Positions 9 to 25,236 of a stretch of 42,373 bases of DNA are shown piece after piece. The notes under the pieces were generated by a model. The model had not been told where the DNA came from and searched no databases. It saw nothing but the letters and a program-made list of their open reading frames with translations. Both the position numbers and the translations under genes were made by a program. The stretch comes from an uncultured Bacteroidia bacterium (GTDB lineage: Bacteria > Bacteroidota > Bacteroidia > J057 > CALDDN01), in contig CALDDN010000049.1 of assembly GCA_937936615.1 (NCBI GenBank), positions 1 through 42,373 of the forward strand, in the 5' to 3' direction. The stretch's first letter is position 1. Each line of letters starts with the position of its first letter.

Positions 9-812
9 GTGGCCTCGGTGCCGCAGCGCAGCCCCTTCCGCTACCCGGGCGGCAAGACGTGGTTCGTCCCCGAGTTCCGGGCGTGGATGCGCCGCCTGCC
101 CAGCAAGCCCCAGTTGCTGATCGAGCCTTTCGCGGGTGGCGCAATCATCGGACTTTCCTCGGCATTCGAAGACTTAGCCGAACGAAGCTTGCTCGTTGAG
201 CTGGACCCCGATGTGGCAGCGGTATGGCATACCTTGTTGTCGGACGACAATTCCTGGCTGGCGGAAACGATCCTTCATTTCGAACTCACCCCCCAAAATT
301 TGACGGCGGCACTCGAGGCCGCGTCCTGCAGCACGAAGCACCGCGCCTGGGCTACCCTGCTGCGGAATCGCGTGGTGCACGGGGGCATTCTGGCTCCGGG
401 TTCGGGCCTGATCCGGCGGGGCGAGAACGGCAGGGGCCTCGCCAGCCGCTGGTACCCCGAAACGCTGAGCCGCCGCATCCGGGCGATCTACGCCATGCGT
501 CACCGGATTGCTTTCCGCCAGGGGGATGCATTCGCGGTACTCGATGAGCTGGGCCACCGACCCGATGTGGCGTGGTTCATCGACCCGCCCTACCACCGAG
601 CCGGCCGGCGGCTCTACACCTGCCACCGGATCGACCACGAGGCCCTTTTTGCACGGGTGGCCCGCCTGCGCGGCCCCTTCCTGCTGACCTACGACGATGC
701 GCCCGAAATCCGCGGACTGGCCAGCCGCCACAGCTTGGCGACGCGCCTCGTGCCCATGAAAACAACCCACCACCGCCAGAAATACGAGCTGGTCATCGAG
801 GCGCGGGGCTGA
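9..812 (+). CDS. Dam-type (D12 class) N6-adenine DNA methyltransferase
   Basis: Transfers a methyl group from S-adenosylmethionine to adenine N6 in DNA. The N-terminal FRYPGGK motif (residues 10-16, SAM binding) and the catalytic DPPY motif (192-195) are both present in the order of the D12/Dam family, and about 267 residues is the usual length. The start shown is GTG at 9. The frame stays open to the window edge, so the true start may lie a few codons further upstream, although the motif position suggests little is missing. No restriction endonuclease or specificity subunit lies within the window, so it looks like a solitary methyltransferase used for regulation, repair or phage protection, or the remnant of a mobile system. 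Target sequence cannot be read from the protein. maeB follows 61 bases later. Confidence 0.85.
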   Translation: MASVPQRSPFRYPGGKTWFVPEFRAWMRRLPSKPQLLIEPFAGGAIIGLSSAFEDLAERSLLVELDPDVAAVWHTLLSDDNSWLAETILHFELTPQNLTAALEAASCSTKHRAWATLLRNRVVHGGILAPGSGLIRRGENGRGLASRWYPETLSRRIRAIYAMRHRIAFRQGDAFAVLDELGHRPDVAWFIDPPYHRAGRRLYTCHRIDHEALFARVARLRGPFLLTYDDAPEIRGLASRHSLATRLVPMKTTHHRQKYELVIEARG

Positions 813-24059: not shown

Positions 24060-24332
24060 ATGACCCCGACGACACGACCTCAGCCAATGAACCCGCAAGA
24101 TCACCCGCTCTATAGCCGCATCGAAACGGCTTTGGAATCGATTCGCAGCTACTTGCAGGCCGATGGCGGCGATGTGCGCATTCACCGCATCGATGGCGAG
24201 GGTGCCGTCGAACTGGAACTGCTCGGTTCATGCGCCACCTGCAGCATGATCGAAACGACAATGAAACTGGGCGTCGAGCAGACGATCCGCCGGGCCGTAC
24301 CCGAGGTTACAGCGGTACGAACGCTGGCCTGA
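24060..24332 (+). CDS. NifU C-terminal domain (Nfu-type) Fe-S scaffold protein
   Basis: A small protein of 90 residues (81 if translation begins at the second ATG, 24087). The Nfu domain is evident: IETALESIRSYLQADGGDV and LELLGSCATCSM, with the two cysteines of CATC as the cluster ligands shared across a dimer. Nfu proteins carry a [4Fe-4S] cluster to targets such as aconitase or respiratory subunits. The chain is the bare domain, without the A-type region of E. coli NfuA. The first nine residues of the long form look unconserved, so the 24087 start is quite possible. It is preceded by the dyad at 23961-23990 and by mrp on the same strand. Confidence 0.9.
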   Translation: MTPTTRPQPMNPQDHPLYSRIETALESIRSYLQADGGDVRIHRIDGEGAVELELLGSCATCSMIETTMKLGVEQTIRRAVPEVTAVRTLA

Positions 24333-24348
24333 TCGGGGAATTTAAAAT

Positions 24349-24477
24349 TTAAGTGGACTTGTACCAGCGCAGCAGCAGCTCGACCACGATAATGGTTGCT
24401 GCGATGATAAGTGCGAACTTCCAGCGGGGCGGCCCGCCGCTGCGCGGCGGTCTGCGAAGTTTGTAGCCGAAGGCCAT
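24349..24477 (-). CDS. Putative 42-residue single-helix membrane microprotein downstream of nuoC
   Basis: A short open frame of 42 codons beginning 18 bases after the nuoC stop on the same strand. The product starts MAFGYKLRRPPRSGGPPRWK, a basic Pro/Gly-rich head, and continues into one hydrophobic helix (about 21-37: FALIIAATIIVVELLLR), ending RWYKST. The charge pattern fits an inner-membrane protein with its N terminus in the cytosol. It is too short for routine gene callers, and I know of no family. Support comes from the clean helix after a positive head, the ATG start, the correct strand and the tight spacing to nuoC. It may be a small complex I-associated or stress-related protein, or a chance frame. 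Confidence 0.5.
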   Translation of the reverse strand: MAFGYKLRRPPRSGGPPRWKFALIIAATIIVVELLLRWYKST

Positions 24478-24495
24478 GCGGTGCGCGGCAGGAGA

Positions 24496-24990
24496 TTACC
24501 TGTAGGGTTTGGGTGGGTCTTTTTCGGGCATCTGGATGCTGCCCGGAATGCCGATCAGGGGAAATTCCTTGCGCAGCGGGAAATACTCGAAATCCTCGGG
24601 CATGAACATGCGGCGCAGGTCGGGGTGGCCCCGAAAGCGGATGCCCATCATATCGTAGACCTCGCGCTCGTTCCAGTTGGCGGCGGGCCAGATGTCGATG
24701 GCCGAGTCAAGCTCGGGCTGGTCTTCCTGCACAAAGGTTTTGACGCGCACGCGCTTGCGCTGGGCCAGGTTCATGAGGTTGTAGCCCACCTCGAAACGCC
24801 ACTCGTCGCGGAAGTGGTCGATCGAGTACATGTCGCTGAAGTAGTCGAAGCCGTACTGCTCCTTGAGGGTGCGGAGCACGGCCAGCAGGTCTTCGGCCCG
24901 CACAGTGAGGGTCAGCTCACCGGCATATACTTTGTGGTCGGCAACTTTAGGCCCGAGGGAGGCCACGAGCTGCTGCATCGGCTGTTCCAT
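24496..24990 (-). CDS. nuoC: NADH-quinone oxidoreductase subunit C (30 kDa)
   Basis: Peripheral-arm subunit of respiratory complex I, lying between NuoD and NuoB on the cytosolic side; it holds no cofactor. The 164-residue protein carries the 30-kDa signature WNEREVYDMMGIRFRGHPDL (near 108-127), followed by RRMFMPEDFEYFPLRKEFPL. Length is normal for a stand-alone NuoC. The gene is isolated: no nuoA, nuoB or nuoD lies on either side, although these normally flank it. A TAGATTTG box lies 26 bases before the ATG. It may be a separated member of a split nuo operon or a second copy. The alternative start is the Met at codon 5. Confidence 0.92.
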   Translation of the reverse strand: MEQPMQQLVASLGPKVADHKVYAGELTLTVRAEDLLAVLRTLKEQYGFDYFSDMYSIDHFRDEWRFEVGYNLMNLAQRKRVRVKTFVQEDQPELDSAIDIWPAANWNEREVYDMMGIRFRGHPDLRRMFMPEDFEYFPLRKEFPLIGIPGSIQMPEKDPPKPYR

Positions 24991-25015: not shown

Positions 25016-25023
25016 CAAATCTA
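25016..25023 (-). promoter_or_regulatory. -7 box of nuoC
   Basis: On the minus strand the sequence reads TAGATTTG, a full match to TAnnTTTG, 26 bases upstream of the nuoC ATG. No -33 TTG is present at the usual distance. Confidence 0.4.
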
Positions 25024-25236
25024 CACAAAAGGTGTCAAATGGGTGTCGAGTGCCGGTTCGATGACATCGGGGTAATACGAGGTGCTGTATTCGATCTGGA
25101 TCGGGCGGTCGCGAGGTTGCCAGGCCAGCAGCCAGCCAGCCAAACGGTTCGAGATCATCGGTGTAGAACGATTCAGCATGAAACCGCCAGACAGAATACG
25201 CAAGTCGGTGTCGAACGAGTGAAATTTCAGATTCAA
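25021..25236 (-). CDS. Doubtful 71-codon frame upstream of nuoC (gene remnant or small gene)
   Basis: The frame begins with TTG right after a TGA and has no ATG until codon 20. The product has no family I recognise; phrases such as RDRPIQIEYSTSYYPDV look protein-like, and the codon choice (CCC, GAC, ACC, CTG) resembles that of neighbouring genes. It could be the 3' remnant of a decayed gene. The stop codon coincides with the first bases of the nuoC -7 box. It may equally be a chance frame. Confidence 0.25.
   Translation of the reverse strand: MNLKFHSFDTDLRILSGGFMLNRSTPMISNRLAGWLLAWQPRDRPIQIEYSTSYYPDVIEPALDTHLTPFV

Follow-up and report, generated by a model that had tools for sequence, protein, structure and literature searches.

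The window analysed here is a stretch of 42,373 nt from an uncultured Bacteroidia bacterium and represents contig 49 of a source assembly that totals 2.17 Mb and is 57% complete. The named relatives of its NuoC are MAGs of Bacteroidia, and the phylum, Bacteroidota, is taken from them. Within the window, nuoC and a gene with a NifU domain are convergent, and an ORF of 42 amino acids occupies most of the 163-bp gap between their stop codons (Table 1). The ORF lies on the same strand as nuoC. Its ATG stands 18 nt past the nuoC stop, and the two share one reading frame with 48 codons from stop to stop. These features, namely position, orientation, length and the distance of 18 bases, are as an earlier note on this DNA had given them, and the ORF listing confirms them. 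No terminator-like site was found in the gap, including the part between nuoC and the ORF, and the gap has no Rfam match. Another ORF, of 71 amino acids, lies in the gap upstream of nuoC and may be a remnant or a product of chance.

Table 1. Features at and around the nuoC/nifU gap (coordinates of the window)
Feature	Position	Strand	Remarks
NifU-domain gene	24060..24332	plus	convergent with nuoC and the ORF; PF01106, E 5.6e-22
Intergenic gap	24333..24495	.	163 bp, nuoC stop to nifU stop; holds the whole ORF
42-aa ORF	24349..24477	minus	start ATG; translation MAFGYKLRRPPRSGGPPRWKFALIIAATIIVVELLLRWYKST (ORF listing)
Predicted transmembrane helix of the 42-aa ORF	residues about 20-37		modelled helix 18-41; basic Pro/Gly head before the helix
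nuoC (Complex1_30kDa)	24496..24990	minus	PF00329, E 5.2e-44; TIGR01961 over cut-off
71-aa ORF	25021..25236	minus	no Pfam or NCBIfam family

The predicted product falls into two parts. Residues 1-20 form a head with six Lys/Arg, four Pro and three Gly, and the hydrophobic segment that follows reaches a best 17-residue Kyte-Doolittle mean of 2.45. This agrees with the basic Pro/Gly-rich head and clean hydrophobic helix described in the earlier note. An AlphaFold2 model gives a low-confidence head and one helix with a pLDDT above 90 for 17 residues, which is weak evidence, as the helix was modelled from a single sequence. By its hydropathy and the extent of this modelled helix, the segment is long enough to span a membrane. 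Family searches gave nothing convincing in Pfam, a best match of only E 0.19 in PHROGs and, in NCBIfam, a best match to GspL at E 0.2 (10.7 bits, against a cut-off of 65). The PDB holds no sequence match, although a query of 42 residues has little power. A limited search of the literature found no microprotein behind nuoC among the titles.

Whether such an ORF resembles a gene or a product of chance was assessed with codon statistics derived from the long ORFs of 393 kb of the source genome, 94,937 codons in all. Three sets served for comparison: 202 intergenic ORFs of 30-60 aa, which include the 42-aa ORF, 1331 ORFs shadowed by long ORFs, and 1551 fragments of long ORFs. The ORF has a codon score of 0.10 per codon, which 78% of the long-ORF fragments equal or exceed. 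Among the intergenic ORFs, this score is reached by 11 (5.4%) and the hydropathy by three, the ORF itself being counted in both cases. Both values together are reached by only two of the 202, namely the 42-aa ORF and a sub-threshold FixQ-like ORF (L097 5831-6013). A 49-aa ORF near a contig end of the same genome (L092 263-412, hydropathy 2.41) is a near miss on both measures. None of the 1331 shadow ORFs is as hydrophobic. The codon signal alone is weak, at +1.2 nats across the gap, yet it is the highest among the six frames. The start context ranks above 70% of 9375 random ATG contexts but above only 13% of the starts of 135 long ORFs.

The gap was also simulated from trinucleotide frequencies, with an intergenic model and a model of its own region, using 40,000 draws each. 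An ORF of at least 40 aa arises in 7.2% of the simulated gaps per strand. When a hydropathy of at least 2.4 is required as well, the number falls to five draws under the intergenic model and two under the own-region model. Over 194 gaps and two strands, about 0.05 chance ORFs this hydrophobic are expected if 163 bp is taken as a typical gap. By these measures, the 42-aa ORF looks more like a gene than a chance ORF.

Relatives of the ORF were sought by tblastn at three taxonomic depths. In the 21 other genomes of the order, the best match outside the source genome is no better than E 0.12. At E <= 0.02, matches occur in four of 394 other genomes of the phylum and three of 394 of the class, against about eight expected by chance in each; these two sets overlap, and two genomes with matches occur in both. 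Where the loci were retrieved and the matches inspected one by one, most lay inside long or non-matching frames. Sensitivity was gauged with a 36-aa ORF from elsewhere in this genome (L094 3802-3912), which the search recovered at E <= 0.05 in five of 22 other genomes, always within a frame of 41-60 aa. The method can thus see a conserved ORF of such a size, if not in all genomes; the control is a rough yardstick, as the two ORFs differ. The control ORF, on the minus strand, itself encodes one helix and has no Pfam or NCBIfam match.

The place of the ORF in the genome is not conserved either. Within 600 bases behind orthologous nuoC, no counterpart was found at any of 21 loci, 20 of which belong to genomes of the order and one to a genome of the class; five of the 21 stop 402-833 bases behind nuoC. 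Three of the 21 carry another small hydrophobic ORF that is unlike the 42-aa ORF. One of the 21 genomes of the order, G017, has no close copy of the nuoC of the source genome. Behind nifU, 18 loci of the order likewise hold no counterpart, and four of them carry other small hydrophobic ORFs. The earlier note had proposed a tblastn search for an ORF that follows nuoC and keeps its frame in related genomes, and had regarded a lack of such conservation as refuting its claim. Neither the nuoC loci nor the tblastn matches show such conservation. As judged by comparison of these loci, the absence behind nuoC is such a refutation at the distance of the other families of the order.

In the window, nuoC itself is solitary and lies outside any nuo operon. 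In the 21 orthologous loci, the flanks of nuoC, up to 4 kb in either direction, contain no presumed NuoB, NuoD or NuoF motif, and no conserved linkage of the ORF to nuo genes was found there. In other groups (L043-L050 and L051-L080, with the order members L051 and L052 and a miss, L078, set aside), 35 of 38 loci have a NuoD motif near nuoC; over all loci the count is 35 of 60. In the stretches examined for nuoD (L171-L180), that gene also stands apart from nuo motifs. Taken with the nuoC loci L022-L042 and L102-L121, both genes are found alone across the order, with other nuo motifs lying elsewhere. The genomes G012 and G014 have, in addition, a further nuoC that is more distant and adjoins a second nuoD. 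From these gene arrangements, the complex I genes look dispersed in the order. Since nuoC is solitary, a position behind it says little about membership of complex I.

In five of the 17 nuoC loci compared (L051, L102, L109, L114 and L116), the gene directly upstream of the solitary nuoC reads like an orotate phosphoribosyltransferase gene, which we take to be pyrE. The window has a gap of about 560 bp and a phosphatase-like gene at this place. In three genomes (G005, G010 and G006, loci L051, L104 and L109), nuoC is directly followed by a gene that they have in common; its product looks secreted and has the words Q.DP close to the start. In G012 (L174 4687-9641, G012:C1:6526380), a few kb separate the solitary nuoD from an mrp-like gene and nifU; in the window, these two genes are the neighbours of nuoC.

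We consider it somewhat more probable than the contrary, at roughly 55%, that the ORF is a genuine, lineage-restricted gene for a small membrane protein that is read from the nuoC transcript. The observations on which such a reading can draw are the ORF itself, its hydrophobicity, its codon use and its modelled helix. The codon score, the hydropathy, the rank among the six frames, the simulations, the modelled helix and the spacing on the nuoC strand without a terminator-like site all argue for it. The small codon signal, a start context weaker than that of most long ORFs and the failure to find a homologue or a positional counterpart argue against it, as does the Pro/Arg/Gly-rich head, which is also expected from a random frame of GC-rich DNA. 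According to this reading, the ORF would be transcribed together with nuoC and translated, with which its codon score is consistent. The positive-inside rule holds that a basic segment stays cytoplasmic. The basic head would then remain in the cytoplasm, residues about 20-37 would form a single membrane span, and the short Trp-Tyr-Lys C-terminus would lie outside. By analogy, the helix of such a one-helix protein may pack against a larger membrane protein, or the protein may have its effect through the room it takes up in the bilayer. Any partner is conjectural, and complex I would be one guess among many. Of the earlier description as a single-helix membrane microprotein, the structural part is plausible in view of hydrophobicity, codon use and model; the suggested function in a respiratory complex finds no support.

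The ORF could instead have arisen by chance in the non-coding space between convergent genes and yield no protein that matters. The lack of relatives in the order, phylum and class, the empty positions at the 21 nuoC and 18 nifU loci, the ease with which ORFs of at least 40 aa appear in simulated gaps and the composition of the head would all follow from such an origin. However, hydrophobicity and codon use are together rare by chance, and no shadow ORF matches the former, so that we regard this explanation as rather unlikely. A different origin is suggested by the weak tblastn matches in six genomes (G008, G013, G014, G021, G034 and G241), which converge on a single protein about 690 aa long, at its C-terminal helix. 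This is a CARDB-containing Bacteroidota membrane protein, presumably BatA-like, that occurs in 54 of the 60 genomes searched. The ORF may be a relic or shuffled copy of that helix, stranded behind nuoC by rearrangement. It shares with the tails the pattern G.P.WK, a helix with Glu at W+14 and a Leu-rich end, and it stands alone, without the large domain of the BatA-like protein. With a profile of 34 BatA-like tails, the ORF ranks first among 6647 frames of the 393 kb (14.1 bits, E 0.013; the next frame has 8.4 bits), and in the alignment the W-K and the Glu 14 residues on line up. Its score is reached by none of 20,000 full shuffles and by five of 20,000 shuffles that preserve the pattern. Five of the 34 tails came from the tblastn matches themselves, though, and the family was chosen after the matches had been seen. 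A five-in-20,000 event is to be expected by chance among thousands of membrane segments. In view of this selection of the family by its hits, and of genome-wide counts at E <= 0.02 that lie below chance, homology was not accepted; once the post hoc choice is allowed for, the sequence similarity to the tail is not significant. Near nuoC, nothing of the remaining protein was seen, and the full protein was not found in the source genome, which is 57% complete. We consider a relic improbable.

A role in respiration fares worse. The earlier note had suggested that the protein stabilises or regulates a respiratory complex, a claim derived from its position. An accessory subunit or assembly factor of complex I, limited to this lineage and co-expressed with nuoC, would fit the position, strand and spacing, and one-helix accessory subunits such as CydX are described for other respiratory complexes (PMC4325964). 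Against this, the ORF is missing behind nuoC in all 21 orthologous loci, tblastn stays at chance level and the search of the PDB gave no support, for what so short a query is worth. The operon logic is weak, as those loci show no linkage of nuoC with nuoB, nuoD or nuoF. Since no relative searched has the ORF behind nuoC, a respiratory role is unsupported, and we hold an accessory function in complex I to be very improbable. Still harder to credit is a reading in which the ORF supplies a dispersed complex I with a membrane anchor specific to the lineage. The anchor would be made either separately or, by read-through of the stop codon, as a membrane tail on NuoC. Such a tail would hold the quinone-reducing arm on the membrane, and it is conceivable because the ORF lies in the frame of nuoC. 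A fused tail elsewhere was looked for and rejected: among 60 NuoC proteins, no C-terminus carries a hydrophobic tail, and the highest tail hydropathy is 0.92.

If the ORF is translated, as the gene reading has it, its product joins the large class of one-helix proteins that are confined to particular taxa and mostly have no known function, and it opens no new question on complex I. The lesson lies in the location. A position behind a respiratory gene was misleading here, as nuoC stands alone and what lies downstream of it is not conserved. Within the same genome, the closest parallel is the FixQ/CcoQ-like ORF, which is also high in hydropathy and codon score together; it differs in having a weak family match (PF05545, 13.6 bits, cut-off 29), whereas the 42-aa ORF has none. 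Among known systems, E. coli CydX is described as a one-helix subunit of 37 aa in a respiratory enzyme and as conserved behind cydAB in more than 300 homologues (PMC4325964). The 42-aa ORF differs from it in having neither a relative nor a conserved position. What it shares with subunits of the CydX type is its length, one hydrophobic helix and a location directly behind the gene for a respiratory subunit.
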